A stretch of 25,695 bases of DNA, from positions 1-25,695 of IMG/VR virus record IMGVR_UViG_3300032235_000832; one strand, written 5' to 3'. The notes under the pieces are model-generated. The model ran no database searches, was not told the DNA's origin, and saw only the letters and a program-made list of their open reading frames with translations. The position numbers and the translations under genes were made by a program. Positions 3,274 through 23,372 of this stretch are shown piece after piece. The number at the start of each line of letters is the position of its first letter. The stretch's first letter is position 1. Source of the stretch: a virus.

Positions 3274-4080
3274 TTAAATTACCTCCCAATGTTCTAAATA
3301 AAGGTCTTCAGTTTTTTTATCAGCATTTCCAGAACCAAACCATGTTGATGGCGCAATAACATTTTGACTATTAGACAACCACGCTCCCCACCAACTGTAT
3401 GACGAATTTGCAATAATATGATATTTGCATAAAGACATTAAACAAAGATCAACATATTGATCTTTAGATTCTGATATCATAAATCTATCAGAAGAAAATG
3501 TATCCTGGGTTTTACACCATTCAGGATCATCAGAAAAAACTAAAACTGGAATATCTGTGTCAAATTTAGAAAGTGCTTCAATATAATAATTTGTACTTAA
3601 AATTGTATGATTTGGATTTTTTAAGTAATCAGTTCTACGAACATGGAGTGATATCGCACTACCAATAGAACTCATCATTTCTAAACAAGGATCTAATATT
3701 TCCTTTTTAAAAGTAAAATCTGATCTTATTATTTCTTCAACATTTTTGAAATATTTTTCAGACTGAAAAAATCCAGCAAGAGTTATTTCATCTGGACACA
3801 TATTAAACAATATTTGATCAAAATGAAAATACTTTTCATTTACAACTGGAGCATATCCTCTATCCATTATTCCAATATTTTTTTGTGATATTGAACTCAT
3901 TTTAAATGGATAGAATAATTCAATTTTAATATCAAATCCATATGGATCTTTAAAAATTTGATTATGATTTGGAATACAAAAATCATATCCCCTATTTCTA
4001 GCAATACCTCTCAAAGAAGCATACTGAAACATTTGATTACCAAGTCTACCTAATTGTCCTAAGTGATTAAACGCTAACAT
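3274..4080 (-). CDS. GT11 alpha-1,2-fucosyltransferase, copy 1
   Basis: The 268-aa protein has all GT11 landmarks: GRLGNQMFQYASLRG (11-25), the GDP-fucose-binding HVRRTDYL (146-153), and ANSSYSWWGAWL (224-235). GT11 enzymes use GDP-L-fucose, and some accept GDP-colitose, to make alpha-1,2 linkages on LPS O-antigen or glycan ends. In copy 1 the second RR-motif residue is T, where the other two copies have G. A good ribosome site (GGAGG) lies about 9 nt before the ATG. The start overlaps the upstream gene by 14 nt. It is the most diverged of three tandem-region paralogs. Confidence 0.9.
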   Translation of the reverse strand: MLAFNHLGQLGRLGNQMFQYASLRGIARNRGYDFCIPNHNQIFKDPYGFDIKIELFYPFKMSSISQKNIGIMDRGYAPVVNEKYFHFDQILFNMCPDEITLAGFFQSEKYFKNVEEIIRSDFTFKKEILDPCLEMMSSIGSAISLHVRRTDYLKNPNHTILSTNYYIEALSKFDTDIPVLVFSDDPEWCKTQDTFSSDRFMISESKDQYVDLCLMSLCKYHIIANSSYSWWGAWLSNSQNVIAPSTWFGSGNADKKTEDLYLEHWEVI

Positions 4081-4895: not shown

Positions 4896-5735
4896 TTAAA
4901 TTTCAATCCAGTTACTAGGCAAAAGATCACTCATATTATAATGAGAAAAGTTTGGTCCAAACCATTTCTTTGGTGCAATTATAGGATAAGTTGGGTTATT
5001 AATTAACCAAGCACCCCACCAACTCAATGAACTATTCGCAATAATTCCACCCTTACATAAAGTCATTAAACAAAGATCATAATATGGAACAAACAATTTA
5101 TCATAACCACCAGAAACTATAACTTTATGATTATATTTTTCATTTCCTTCAGATATAAAAAATCTATCTGAAGAAAATAGTTTTTGTTTTTTACACCATT
5201 CAATATCATTAGAACATATAATTACATCACAATCATCATCAAAATAACTCAAAGCAGTCTCATAATACTCAATAGAACAGGTTGGATGACATCCTGGATT
5301 GTTTAGATAGTCTCCTCTTCTAACGTGAATAAAAATTGGTTTATTTAAGGTTTCAACAAATTGCTGACAGGTTTTTAATATATCATCCTTAAAAGTGTAA
5401 TCAGTTTTTATAAGATCTTTTACATTTAAAAAATATTTTTGAGTTTGAAAAAAGTCGTTTAGATTAACATTATCTGGGCAATTATTAAATAAATTTTCAT
5501 CAAAATGAAAATTACCAGTCTCATAAGTTTTCGCATCTATAAATCCAAAGTTATTTGGAGTAACTGATTGCATCTTAAAGCATTCAAATAATCCATAATT
5601 GGCATCATAGTAATTATCTGGAGGGGGAATAACCCAATCATATCCCATGTTTTCGGATATTCCTCGCAAAGATGCATATTGGAACATTTGATTTCCCAAA
5701 AAACCATTGGATCCTAATCTATTATATCCAATCAT
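4896..5735 (-). CDS. GT11 alpha-1,2-fucosyltransferase, copy 2
   Basis: 279 aa. GT11 motifs: GFLGNQMFQYASLRG (11-25), HVRRGDYL (137-144) and ANSSLSWWGAWL (233-244). I choose the ATG at 5735. It overlaps the upstream stop as ATGA and has GGAG about 9 nt before it. An ATG at 5750 would add five residues. Bases 4995-5072 are identical to 5840-5917 in copy 3, which covers the ANSSLSWWGAWL region. The two copies arose by duplication and have recombined or diverged very unevenly. Expected donor GDP-L-fucose, or GDP-colitose if the ColD branch is active. Confidence 0.9.
   Translation of the reverse strand: MIGYNRLGSNGFLGNQMFQYASLRGISENMGYDWVIPPPDNYYDANYGLFECFKMQSVTPNNFGFIDAKTYETGNFHFDENLFNNCPDNVNLNDFFQTQKYFLNVKDLIKTDYTFKDDILKTCQQFVETLNKPIFIHVRRGDYLNNPGCHPTCSIEYYETALSYFDDDCDVIICSNDIEWCKKQKLFSSDRFFISEGNEKYNHKVIVSGGYDKLFVPYYDLCLMTLCKGGIIANSSLSWWGAWLINNPTYPIIAPKKWFGPNFSHYNMSDLLPSNWIEI
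4995..5072. repeat. 78-bp perfect direct repeat, copy A (in GT11 copy 2)
   Basis: Identical base for base to 5840-5917. It encodes the C-terminal GT11 donor-site block in both genes, while flanking sequence is clearly diverged. Confidence 0.93.
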
Positions 5736-6592
5736 TCTATAATCTCCCATTCATTCGGAATTAAATCATCCATCACATAATAATTATACATTGGACCAAA
5801 CCATTCATTCGGATCTGGAGAAATTATTTTTTTGTCCTCGTTATTAATTAACCAAGCACCCCACCAACTCAATGAACTATTCGCAATAATTCCACCCTTA
5901 CATAAAGTCATTAAACACAAATCCCAAAAAGGAATTAAAGAGTTTTCAATAGCACCGTCGCCCATTTGCATTTTAATATTAAATTTTTCAGTATTTTCAG
6001 AAATAAAAAATCTATCTGGTTTAAAAATATCTTGCTCTTTGCACCAGTCTGAATCGTCAGACAGTACAATAACAGGAATATTTGTATCAAATTTATTTAA
6101 AGACTTTTTATAATAATCTTCCCTCAACAATGGATGATAATTTTGAACTCTAACATAGTCACCTCGACGAACATGTAAGAATATTGCATCACCAATACTA
6201 TTAATTATTTCTAAACAAGGATTTAAAATTTCTGGTATAAAGGAAAAATCAAGTCGTATATCATTCTCAATATGTTTAAAATATTTTTCAGATTGAAAAT
6301 GAGTTTCTAAATCTACATTGTCTTCACACTCATTGAAAAGAACTTCATTAAAATGAAATTGCTTTTTTTCATAAGATGTTCTTTTTTCATTACCAAAACC
6401 TATATTTTTTTCTTTAACACTGGACATTTCAAAACATTGAAATAAACAATAATTTGTTTCACCAGGATGAGATTTTGGAGGTATTAAAAAATCAAATCCA
6501 CGATTTGCTGCAATACCACGCAAACCAGCGTATTGGAACATCTGGTTTCCAAGACGACCATTTGATCCCAATCTATTATAACTTATTGTCAT
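5732..6592 (-). CDS. GT11 alpha-1,2-fucosyltransferase, copy 3
   Basis: 286 aa with GRLGNQMFQYAGLRG (12-26), HVRRGDYV (140-147) and a C-terminal NSSLSWWGAWL block. Compared with copy 1 it has an insert of about 15 residues before the last motif (after SENTEKF), as copy 2 does. ATG at 6592 overlaps the FkbM stop as ATGA, and AGGAAA lies 8-10 nt upstream. Tandem arrangement with copy 2 and the shared 78-bp identity indicate intra-island duplication. The three paralogs may fucosylate different acceptor positions. Confidence 0.9.
   Translation of the reverse strand: MTISYNRLGSNGRLGNQMFQYAGLRGIAANRGFDFLIPPKSHPGETNYCLFQCFEMSSVKEKNIGFGNEKRTSYEKKQFHFNEVLFNECEDNVDLETHFQSEKYFKHIENDIRLDFSFIPEILNPCLEIINSIGDAIFLHVRRGDYVRVQNYHPLLREDYYKKSLNKFDTNIPVIVLSDDSDWCKEQDIFKPDRFFISENTEKFNIKMQMGDGAIENSLIPFWDLCLMTLCKGGIIANSSLSWWGAWLINNEDKKIISPDPNEWFGPMYNYYVMDDLIPNEWEIIE
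5840..5917. repeat. 78-bp perfect direct repeat, copy B (in GT11 copy 3)
   Basis: Partner of 4995-5072, in the same orientation and frame, 845 bp apart. Confidence 0.93.
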
Positions 6593-20177: not shown

Positions 20178-20732
20178 TTATTGGGGTATTTCTTCAGGTA
20201 CAATAATTGGAGTTTGCTCAGAATCTTCTACAGATAATTTAGAAGTTTTTTCAATTATAGATCTCAACATCCATATAAATTTACCATGAGATTCCATTAA
20301 ATCTTGAATTAGATTCTCAGTAGCATATGATCTTTGAGTTCCTGCTTCTTCGGATGCTTCTGACATTAATTCCATTAAAATCATATTATCTGTCATCAAT
20401 CTTTTAATCATATCATCAGACTTTACAATAGTCTTACCTTGAATTATTTGTTTTTGTCCCATATTATCAAACTGAATGGAATTAGATCCCTCACCTATAG
20501 TAGAAACTTCAACAATTCTAGATAATGTTCCAATTGGTCTTATATTCAAATATCTCATATGTTCAGAAAGTCGATCAATTTCTCCAAACATAGATTCATA
20601 CTGCTCACCTAAAAGAGTATGTATTTGATAAAAATCTTGACCTACCACATTCCAATGAAAGACCCAGGTTTTATGAAATAAAATAAAAAGATTTGCTTGT
20701 ATGTCACTCAATTGTTTGAAAAGTTTTTCCAT
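20178..20732 (-). CDS. Dps/ferritin-like protein
   Basis: 184 aa. The N-terminal half follows the Dps four-helix layout: FHWNVVGQDFYQIHTLLGEQ (25-44), then the second helix with EIDRLSEHM (51-59). H26, H38, D53 and E57 match the Dps ferroxidase region, but the position that usually holds Asp after H38 is G42. Dps proteins bind DNA and oxidise and store iron. A C-terminal extension ends in a proline-rich acidic tail (TPIIVPEEIPQ). An exact TATAAATA box lies 18-25 nt upstream of the ATG. Confidence 0.8.
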   Translation of the reverse strand: MEKLFKQLSDIQANLFILFHKTWVFHWNVVGQDFYQIHTLLGEQYESMFGEIDRLSEHMRYLNIRPIGTLSRIVEVSTIGEGSNSIQFDNMGQKQIIQGKTIVKSDDMIKRLMTDNMILMELMSEASEEAGTQRSYATENLIQDLMESHGKFIWMLRSIIEKTSKLSVEDSEQTPIIVPEEIPQ

Positions 20733-21687: not shown

Positions 21688-21714
21688 CCCTAATTGTATT
21701 ATATAGTTAGAATA

Positions 21715-23193
21715 TCAGAACCTAAACTGAGTCTGAATCACACCACCATAGTTAGAAGAAGCATTCTTGAATCCTTGATTATTGGAAACATAGAAGATTG
21801 CAGGAGTGATGCTGATATTATCACTCACACGATAGCGATAGAAGGTTTCCCACATCAGAGCATCCTTAGTGAGGGAAGCAGCGTTGCCAGGAGCACCGAT
21901 AGCAAAACCAGCAGCATTACCCTTGACAAATACATCTGCCCACTGAAGACCAGCAAACCAAGTCTGAGACTTAGTAGCAGCACGGGGAGTGGCAGGACCT
22001 TCTACAGTATTCCACCCATAAGCACCACTCAGAGAGGGAATAATACCAGACTTCTTGGGTTGCCAGTAAGCATTCAGAGCATAACCATTGGAAGTTTGAT
22101 TGGCGGCAAGAGTGCCACCATTACCAGCAACACCATTGAAGGTACGAACACGAGTGCCTTCAGTACCATAACGATAACCAAATGCAATGCCGTACTGAGG
22201 AGCACGATAACCAAACTGTGCCAGAGTATTCAGAGCACCAGATTCGTTAAATTCACCTTTGCTAGAATCAGAACCGTTCTGAGCAACATAGTTCACACCA
22301 GCAACGAAACCACCTTTCTTGCCAGGTTGTACCCATTGAGCACCGAAACCAGAACCAGTTGCTTTATTATAAACACCAGGAGCACCAGCAACAGCGAAGA
22401 AGTCCAGAATGTCAGACTTATAGGCAGTAGGAATCCATGCCATCTCAGTGTTACGAACCAAAGCACCAGCAGTCAGATTGAGACCTTTGGTGAGAGCAGG
22501 GAACTGATAGTACAGACGGTCAAGTTGTACTTGGTTAGAAGTGCTCTCTGCCTTGTCCAGTTTGAACAGGGAAGAAGATGAACCAAAAGGTTGACTGGAG
22601 AAATTACCAGAACGCAGACGAGTCTTCAGCAAATCCTTACCAGTAAAAGAAGTATCGAAGTTCAGACGAACATCATAGTTGAATGCTGTATTGCCAACAT
22701 TAGTGCTGTTAGCAAGACGAGCACCTTCTACACCACCAAGAACGAAAGTTGCTTCGCCACGCAGTTTAGATGTGGTAGAAAATTGAGTTGCTTGAAGTTG
22801 ACCAACTTGTGCTTCCAGTTTATCAACACGACCACGAATAACTAGAAGTTCTTCAGAAAACTCTTTCGAAAGACGTTGGAGTTCATCTGTTACTTCAGTT
22901 ACACGGTCAAGGCAAGCATTCAGAAGTGCTGCTGCCTCATAACGGGTCATTGCCTTTCCACCACCATAAGTACCGTTAGGATAACCTGCTACGCAGCCAT
23001 AACGCTCCACGAGGTTGCTGAGTGCCTGATATGCCCAATCAGAAGGTTGCACATCAGAGAATTGAGTGACGCTTGTTGCTTGCTCAGCGGAGTATTGATT
23101 GACTGCTGCCATATTAAGATCTGCGGCATTCGCAACAGCAGGAGCAATCATACCAAGAGCAACGGGTGCAAGCATCAGTTGTTTGAGTTTCAT
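21715..23193 (-). CDS. Cyanobacterial SLH-domain outer-membrane porin (OprB/SomA type)
   Basis: 492 aa. Signal peptide MKLKQLMLAPVALGMIAPAV followed by ANA-A cleavage near 23; SLH domain 45-98 (FSDVQPSDWAYQALSNL; AMTRYEAAALLNACL); coiled coil about 98-137; then an OprB-like beta barrel to the end, with an aromatic C-terminal FRF as the outer-membrane insertion signal. This is the architecture of the major porins of cyanobacteria that link the outer membrane to peptidoglycan and admit nutrients. Base composition is markedly richer in G+C than the phage genes near it, which suggests acquisition from a host. Own promoter and terminator flank it. Confidence 0.93.
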   Translation of the reverse strand: MKLKQLMLAPVALGMIAPAVANAADLNMAAVNQYSAEQATSVTQFSDVQPSDWAYQALSNLVERYGCVAGYPNGTYGGGKAMTRYEAAALLNACLDRVTEVTDELQRLSKEFSEELLVIRGRVDKLEAQVGQLQATQFSTTSKLRGEATFVLGGVEGARLANSTNVGNTAFNYDVRLNFDTSFTGKDLLKTRLRSGNFSSQPFGSSSSLFKLDKAESTSNQVQLDRLYYQFPALTKGLNLTAGALVRNTEMAWIPTAYKSDILDFFAVAGAPGVYNKATGSGFGAQWVQPGKKGGFVAGVNYVAQNGSDSSKGEFNESGALNTLAQFGYRAPQYGIAFGYRYGTEGTRVRTFNGVAGNGGTLAANQTSNGYALNAYWQPKKSGIIPSLSGAYGWNTVEGPATPRAATKSQTWFAGLQWADVFVKGNAAGFAIGAPGNAASLTKDALMWETFYRYRVSDNISITPAIFYVSNNQGFKNASSNYGGVIQTQFRF

Positions 23194-23224
23194 AAGTTTT
23201 TGTTTTCTTATAAAGAATATAAAA

Positions 23225-23251
23225 GGAGTCTTAAGAAATTCCTAAGACTCC
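23225..23251 (-). terminator. Hairpin overlapping the porin promoter start region
   Basis: Perfect 9-bp stem GGAGTCTTA/TAAGACTCC, 9-nt loop, then TTTTATATTCTTT on the minus strand. It follows tRNA-Gly by about 50 nt and would end the tRNA transcript. The predicted start of the porin promoter falls in its 5' arm. Confidence 0.75.
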
Positions 23252-23255
23252 GAGA

Positions 23256-23284
23256 ATTTTATAATACTTTCTTTAGATTGTCAA
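23256..23284 (-). promoter_or_regulatory. Sigma70 promoter for the porin
   Basis: TTGACA (23284-23279), 17 bp and TAAAAT (23261-23256). Start predicted near 23249; leader of about 56 nt. Confidence 0.65.
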
Positions 23285-23300
23285 CTAAGGAAAGATTAAG

Positions 23301-23372
23301 AGCGGCTGACCCGATTCGAACGGGCGACATCCAACTTGGAAGGATGGCGTTCTACCACTGAACTACAACCGC
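23301..23372 (-). tRNA. tRNA-Gly(TCC)
   Basis: 72 nt. Acceptor GCGGTTG/CAGCCGC, D stem GTTC/GAAC, anticodon loop CTTCCAA (TCC), T loop TTCGAAT. One T-T mismatch in the anticodon stem. Discriminator T. Confidence 0.95.

Follow-up and report, generated by a model that had tools for sequence, protein, structure and literature searches.

Results

The porin gene and its surroundings

On the minus strand of the window (by which we mean the whole 25,695-nt stretch of viral DNA that was analysed), positions 21715-23193 hold a complete ORF with an ATG start that encodes an SLH-OprB porin of 492 aa. An earlier note on this DNA had described the range 21715-23284, which consists of this ORF and its promoter, as a full-length signal-SLH-coil-barrel porin with an FRF end, and the coordinates, the Pfam and NCBIfam matches, the structural model and the C-terminal residues QTQFRF all agree with that description. 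The product scores 293 bits against NCBIfam NF033921 (por_somb, 'iron uptake porin'), for which the cut-off is 100, and matches Pfam OprB (E 2.2e-12) as well as Pfam SLH at aa 45-88 (E 5.5e-9). With its N-terminal SLH domain, C-terminal OprB barrel and full-length homology to host porins, it belongs computationally to the SLH-OprB cyanobacterial porins. A PHROG search with the protein gave no match. Long plus-strand ORFs across the gene (21694-22581 and 22876-23361) were taken as antisense by-products.

The signal peptide (approximately aa 1-24; 23122..23193) was assigned by eye from the translation, MKLKQLMLAPVALGMIAPAVANA|AD, and is followed by the S-layer homology (SLH) domain (22930..23061). 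In the AlphaFold2 model, a long helix (coil) at aa 84-137 (22783..22944) joins the SLH domain to a 16-strand beta-barrel, which occupies aa 141-492 (21718..22773) with its strands within 141-491 and closes with the aromatic F-R-F end; all of these features lie on the minus strand. The mean pLDDT of the model is 77.4, mostly about 90 in the barrel and mostly below 50 in the N-terminal SLH part. Foldseek returned Pseudomonas putida OprB (4gey, E 4.4e-13) as the best solved fold, and VIA-align of the model to OprB gave Z 25.5 and rmsd 3.2 with 315 aligned residues. The second-best fold was the SLH-tethered Veillonella porin OmpM1 (8bym/8byt), whose SLH region is also matched by sequence; OmpM1, however, is a cellular protein from another phylum with low identity to ours.

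The earlier note had also given the gene its own promoter and terminator, and both can be recognised. A sigma-70-type promoter, TTGACA-17-TAAAAT (11/12 matches), lies at 23284..23256 on the minus strand, and a terminator-like hairpin with a T tail (21691-21667, minus strand) stands in the sequence just past the porin stop. The motif CTTA-N7-CTTA, expected in the promoters of PhoB-controlled cyanophage nutrient genes, was found at 23286-23300 on the same strand, where it abuts the -35 hexamer. This predicted Pho box, CTTAATCTTTCCTTA, directly upstream of TTGACA, is an exact match to the cyanobacterial consensus CTTA-N7-CTTA as reported in PMC3037559; the repeat is given as CTTAACCT in PMC1906773. 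The window contains only two CTTA-N7-CTTA matches, the other one being part of a hairpin in the 5' leader (23225..23251, minus strand) that is followed by a T run and may be a stabiliser, an attenuator, or the terminator of the upstream tRNA unit. Immediately upstream of the promoter ARAGORN places a tRNA-Gly (23300..23372, minus strand). Downstream, in the same direction, is a Dps/ferritin-like gene (20178..20732, minus strand; Pfam Ferritin 2.1e-19, with Dps relatives in PDB). Its product has an HWN...H...D...E pattern, which is typical of ferroxidase sites.

A phage lineage of cyanobacterial porins

S-SRM01, a complete Synechococcus phage isolate from a Singapore reservoir, has a 'porin' (QPX48248.1) that is 76.8% identical to the window porin over its full length (two records), likewise with a tRNA block upstream and a Dps gene downstream. 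It is known by annotation only, and the word porin is absent from the S-SRM01 genome paper (PMC8557907). The phage collection gave six matching records in all, including SLH-only matches in S-CREM1 and S-PM2. Among viral contigs, 472 of the 479 pattern-matched stretches encode relatives of the window porin, and two further viral-contig queries gave 399/416 and 309/315; we studied the best 80 of 472, of 399 and of 309, three sets that overlap. These relatives include 122 distinct full-length phage porins of 482-509 aa, and on the host side there are 48 distinct porins of 480-567 aa, a count that includes the record L083 described below. Exactly one porin match was found in each of 8 large viral contigs and in S-SRM01. 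As far as our searches show, the phage porin family is large and bears only automatic names. One 87.6-kb record, IMGVR_UViG_3300044631_000905 (L003, L061), has two different phage porins separated by about 15 kb, with 96% and 83% identity to that of the window, and this may be a real duplication or a chimera.

The earlier note had placed the gene in DNA richer in G+C than the phage background. Its G+C is indeed 0.46, compared to 0.24-0.38 in the ORFs of the glycan island, but its GC3 of 0.32 equals that of other phage genes of the window (0.30 in ORF 918-1223, 0.32 in the tail lysozyme) and is far from the host porin median of 0.77. Since GC3 is phage-like and unlike that of host porins, the step in G+C does not indicate recent capture from a host, and we ruled out G+C as a mark of foreign origin. 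It is extremely improbable that the gene comes from a misassembled host contig or from a recent, non-functional host capture. The G+C above that of the glycan island would speak for such an origin; against it are the phage-like GC3, the single clade of phage porins, the 472 of 479 viral stretches and the one porin in each of nine large virus records. Misassembly, which the earlier note had named among the findings that would overturn its proposal, is excluded by the isolate S-SRM01 together with hundreds of viral contigs.

In a maximum-likelihood tree built quickly from 117 rows, 73/73 phage rows and L083 fall into a single clade (SH-aLRT 99), opposite 43 host rows. The latter were chosen for their similarity to the window porin, and a closer host lineage may therefore exist beyond those sampled. 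A porin relative is carried by 192 of 201 host-family genomes, and the closest host matches in these 201 genomes have 60% identity across almost the entire length and up to 63% within aa 35-492. The wording 'host-type' in the earlier note holds for fold and family but not for the sequence, which lies in a phage-only clade at no more than about 63% identity to any sampled host porin in the aligned part. The exceptional row L083 (CALGUV010000018.1) is filed in a Microbacteriaceae (actinobacterial) MAG, yet its porin is of the phage clade. It also carries nrdA/nrdB, dCMP deaminase and a sigma-factor gene, has a G+C of 0.50, and is probably a misbinned phage of another type.

Phage porins are under purifying selection and their function has been kept. 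The median dN/dS of phage porin pairs is 0.25 (7,483 pairs with dS 0.1-1.0, none of them at or above 1), compared to 0.47 for 364 host porin pairs. The most constrained regions are aa 161-185 (dN/dS 0.10) and the SLH domain (0.11), and mean dN/mean dS is below 0.4 in every region. The window gene represents a phage branch, of long standing, of the cyanobacterial SLH-OprB porins of the SomB/Slr1908 kind. It shares with them (SomA/SomB, Slr1841/Slr1908; NF033921) the signal, one SLH domain, the coil, the OprB barrel and the aromatic C-terminus, and differs in that the phage copies form their own clade, at about 60% identity to the nearest host porin, and have shorter, near-neutral surface loops. 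Summed extracellular loops amount to 142 aa in phage and 168 aa in host porins, with a loop entropy of 0.93 versus 2.03 and a net loop charge of -2 (+1 in the window) versus -9. The charge of the barrel as a whole had seemed peculiar to the phage porins, but the strand charge is +7 in both, and we dropped barrel charge as a sign of anion selectivity for this reason. The trimmed, less acidic loops fit a streamlined channel and equally a less recognisable surface.

Promoter and Pho box in relatives

The leaders compared are 115 distinct phage porin leaders of 200 nt each, which are non-identical and still related, so that the shuffle figures given below, which ignore relatedness, are guides only. 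CTTA-N7-CTTA abuts TTGAC in 26/115 of these leaders, and the relaxed YTTA form does so in 33/115 (shuffles 0.02), or in 21/87 after merging porins at least 95% identical. The raw count of CTTA-N7-CTTA is 37/115; about 10 of these are CTTAAG...CTTA and belong to an inverted repeat further downstream, which is why the count of 26 abutting TTGAC is used. No spacer length from N2 to N14 other than N7 was enriched in the 115 leaders. As a control, the box was found in 22 of 1,343 other ORF leaders of the same loci, and 18 of these 22 precede pstS, as recognised by a common N-terminus. An identical 15-mer, CTTAACCAAATCTTA, precedes 12 porins and most of the 18 box-bearing pstS genes. A predicted cyanobacterial Pho box directly upstream of TTGACA in a phage porin promoter, recurring to this extent, is new.

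Most leaders lack the box: it is carried by 13 of 64 tree rows, and by 34/77 loci if a box before either porin or pstS is counted. On the porin tree the 13 positive rows require at least 11 changes, compared to a mean of 12.1 for shuffled labels, and this scatter suggests that the Pho-type leader was gained or exchanged repeatedly. Host porin leaders have the exact CTTA-N7-CTTA in 0/50 cases and the relaxed form in 3/50.

TTGACA occurs in 75/115 leaders (shuffles 6.9), TTGACA-N16-18-TAWNAT in 55/115 (shuffles 0), and [CA]TAAATA, which resembles T4-type late promoters, in 89/115 (shuffles 13.1). The leader of the window porin has the sigma-70 promoter and no TAAATA. Phage porin leaders (e.g. 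L143 and L157) often pair a sigma-70 promoter with the TAAATA late-like motif, and a CGTTTAGTA element is found 20-40 nt ahead of the ATG in 49/115. Leader hairpins differ in sequence and have a similar place (again L143 and L157, and 23225-23251 in the window). The signal for a conserved leader hairpin that might act as regulatory RNA was too weak to support such a role, with a mean z of -1.38 in 108 leaders versus -0.76 in a control stretch that includes tRNA genes.

Neighbouring genes and a contrasting SLH family

Gene neighbourhoods were compared in 104 non-redundant porin loci, 82 of which have at least 3 kb downstream. PstS is encoded no more than 3 kb downstream of the porin in 30/82 loci, and within 400 nt in 25 of these; the assignment was checked by Pfam PBP_like_2 on three porin neighbours and on L272. 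Dps lies within 4 kb downstream likewise in 30/82; both occur together in 15/82, and neither is nearby in 37/82. A porin Pho box showed no association with an adjacent pstS (7/30 vs 9/52 loci), and the 25.7-kb window fragment has Dps and no pstS. Upstream, a tail lysozyme is found within 2.5 kb of the same offset in 60/113 loci. A GDP-mannose dehydratase relative matches near the porin in 41/138 loci; for the whole-surface remodelling together with the glycan island that the earlier note had suggested, this is co-location only. Downstream of the porin, 22/104 loci have a redoxin/peroxiredoxin gene (e.g. L072:13680-14213), which suggests that the cargo region also has an oxidative-stress component.

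In a Dps search of viral contigs, 209/214 stretches encode relatives, and a different SLH protein, of roughly 290 aa and related to S-PM2p170, can stand ahead of dps in place of the porin. For this family 133/137 viral stretches encode relatives, the best 80 of the 133 being studied, and a model shows a helix and 8 strands (mean pLDDT 67.8). Its members (L303:6679-7560, the relatives L348-L426, and L105:3932-4771 of S-PM2) have 279-295 aa, end in F and are annotated as 'putative S-layer protein' or 'iron uptake porin'. Like the window porin, S-PM2p170 ('putative S-layer protein') and S-CREM1_199 are phage SLH-coil-barrel proteins with a similar SLH domain, and their relatives stand at the porin locus in some freshwater phages; unlike it, they have an 8-strand barrel of about 165 aa. 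None of 58 leaders of 8-strand genes has a Pho box, PstS is beside 1 of 45 such loci, and Dps follows in 13/45. The differences from the porin family give Fisher values of 3e-8 for the Pho box and 3e-6 for PstS, uncorrected for relatedness and to be read as guides only. As the 8-strand genes lack the box and rarely stand beside PstS, both features belong to the porin-sized protein. Phage Dps recurs behind a porin, PstS or the 8-strand SLH protein. In one phage without an SLH protein before dps, a small barrel of Pfam Phage_OMP (L272:6293-6661) and PstS are there instead. Envelope cargo seems to have a hot spot between lysozyme and dps.

Discussion

The window comes from a virus of freshwater cyanobacteria, which probably uses its porin to help the infected cell take up scarce nutrients. 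More specifically, we find it slightly more likely than not that this porin of a phage lineage is induced by the host PhoB and raises the uptake of phosphate and/or iron across the outer membrane during infection. Nutrient uptake had been put forward in the earlier note, and at the level of sequence it gains support from the promoter Pho box and from the recurrent pstS adjacency in relatives. According to PMC10976474, cyanophage pstS is controlled by PhoBR, and not all Pho boxes predicted in phages are bound by PhoB; they can fail in EMSA. In Synechocystis, PhoB is reported to bind the promoter of the iron-selective SLH porin gene slr1908, which was up 7.5-fold under +Fe-P (PMC11126600), and this makes the regulatory reading plausible for the phage porin. 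The host precedent and the PhoBR control of cyanophage pstS, taken together with the fallibility of Pho box predictions, lead us to favour PhoB-controlled nutrient uptake to the degree stated.

Concerning PhoB binding, expression in infection, location, the ion transported and the benefit to the phage, we infer the following course. In an infected, phosphate-starved host of the Synechococcus/Cyanobium type, the host PhoB (SphR) would bind the Pho box beside the -35 hexamer and turn on the phage porin through the host sigma-70 RNA polymerase. The porin would be exported, fold as a 16-strand outer-membrane barrel and be anchored to the cell wall through its SLH domain. With the synthesis of host porins shut down, it would maintain or raise the permeability of the outer membrane to inorganic nutrient ions, in the first place phosphate and perhaps also iron. 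Many relatives have, directly behind the porin gene, genes for a phage PstS that would bind phosphate in the periplasm and for a Dps-like iron protein. Several results count against this reading: the minority of tree rows with a box, the frequent TAAATA late-like motif, the independence of box and pstS adjacency, the loci with neither PstS nor Dps, the window fragment without pstS and the host porin leaders without an exact box. To these may be added the reported EMSA failures and the statement, in PMC9705863, that the porins of Anabaena could not be linked to iron uptake.

A channel that serves mainly iron acquisition is a minority possibility, and one that overlaps PhoB-controlled nutrient uptake, so that our degrees of confidence are not exclusive. 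An Fe-selective porin of the Slr1908 kind with Dps storage would supply phage ferredoxin, PsbA turnover and Fe(II) enzymes, and the Pho box would reflect Fe/P cross-talk. The family name 'iron uptake porin', the frequent Dps-like gene within 4 kb and its retained ferroxidase-type motif point this way, as does the reported PhoB control of an Fe porin in Synechocystis. However, the phage porin lacks the acidic surface loops of host porins and does not suggest cation capture, the recurrent direct neighbour is pstS and not an iron-binding protein, and Dps also follows the 8-strand form.

The same loops bear on surface replacement, also raised in the earlier note, in which a trimmed, near-neutral porin would dilute or replace host porins used as receptors and block superinfection. 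Their reduced length, entropy and charge agree with it, and so does the fact that a different SLH barrel can take the same place in the genome. We nevertheless regard it as unlikely: it leaves the Pho box and pstS adjacency unexplained, it assumes that these porins are cyanophage receptors, and the phage loops are more conserved and not diversifying. Ancestry alone may account for loops that differ between a clade and its outgroup. The Lc/NmpC porin of the lambdoid phage PA-2 is a precedent for replacement by a phage-carried porin; it is of the enterobacterial OmpF/C type, has no SLH domain and acts in lysogenic conversion, unlike the window porin. Somewhat more doubtful still is that the pore is secondary and that the SLH domain serves to anchor the outer membrane to peptidoglycan, preventing vesicle shedding or early lysis. 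The strong conservation of the SLH domain, the fold resembling wall-tethered OmpM1 and the 8-strand phage SLH protein, an unlikely nutrient pore at the same place before dps, would all fit a tether. Disruption of slr1908 is moreover reported to lower cell iron and to cause hypervesiculation, with more vesicles (PMC8707739). Yet purifying selection has maintained the full 16-strand pore, and the Pho box and the pstS link set the porin apart from the 8-strand form.

Returning to PhoB-controlled nutrient uptake, the cyanophage genes pstS and phoA under host PhoBR are a close known parallel, with the same Pho box, the same host regulator to be expected and often a neighbouring position; the porin differs in being an outer-membrane channel, not a periplasmic binding protein or an enzyme. 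Known phage nutrient genes act in the periplasm (pstS) and as enzymes (phoA). If an outer-membrane channel obeys the pstS/phoA switch, viral control would reach as far out as the cell's first permeability barrier. We tentatively suggest, at somewhat less than an even chance, that freshwater cyanomyoviruses own a virus-evolved outer-membrane pore switched on by the host phosphate sensor, which with phage PstS would form a viral import line for phosphate from outer membrane to periplasm. If so, viruses would set host outer-membrane permeability by nutrient state. The porin offers a directly testable model of the way in which lytic cyanophages manage in lakes poor in phosphorus or iron. A literature search for phage-encoded porins, which covered subscription journals only in small part, found nothing, and the literature on cyanophage, porin and pstS describes no phage porin as far as searched.

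Elsewhere in the window, the glycosyltransferase-like ORFs at 3274-4080, 4896-5750 and 5732-6592 have a common N-terminal LGNQMFQY motif and look like nearby paralogues within the glycan island.
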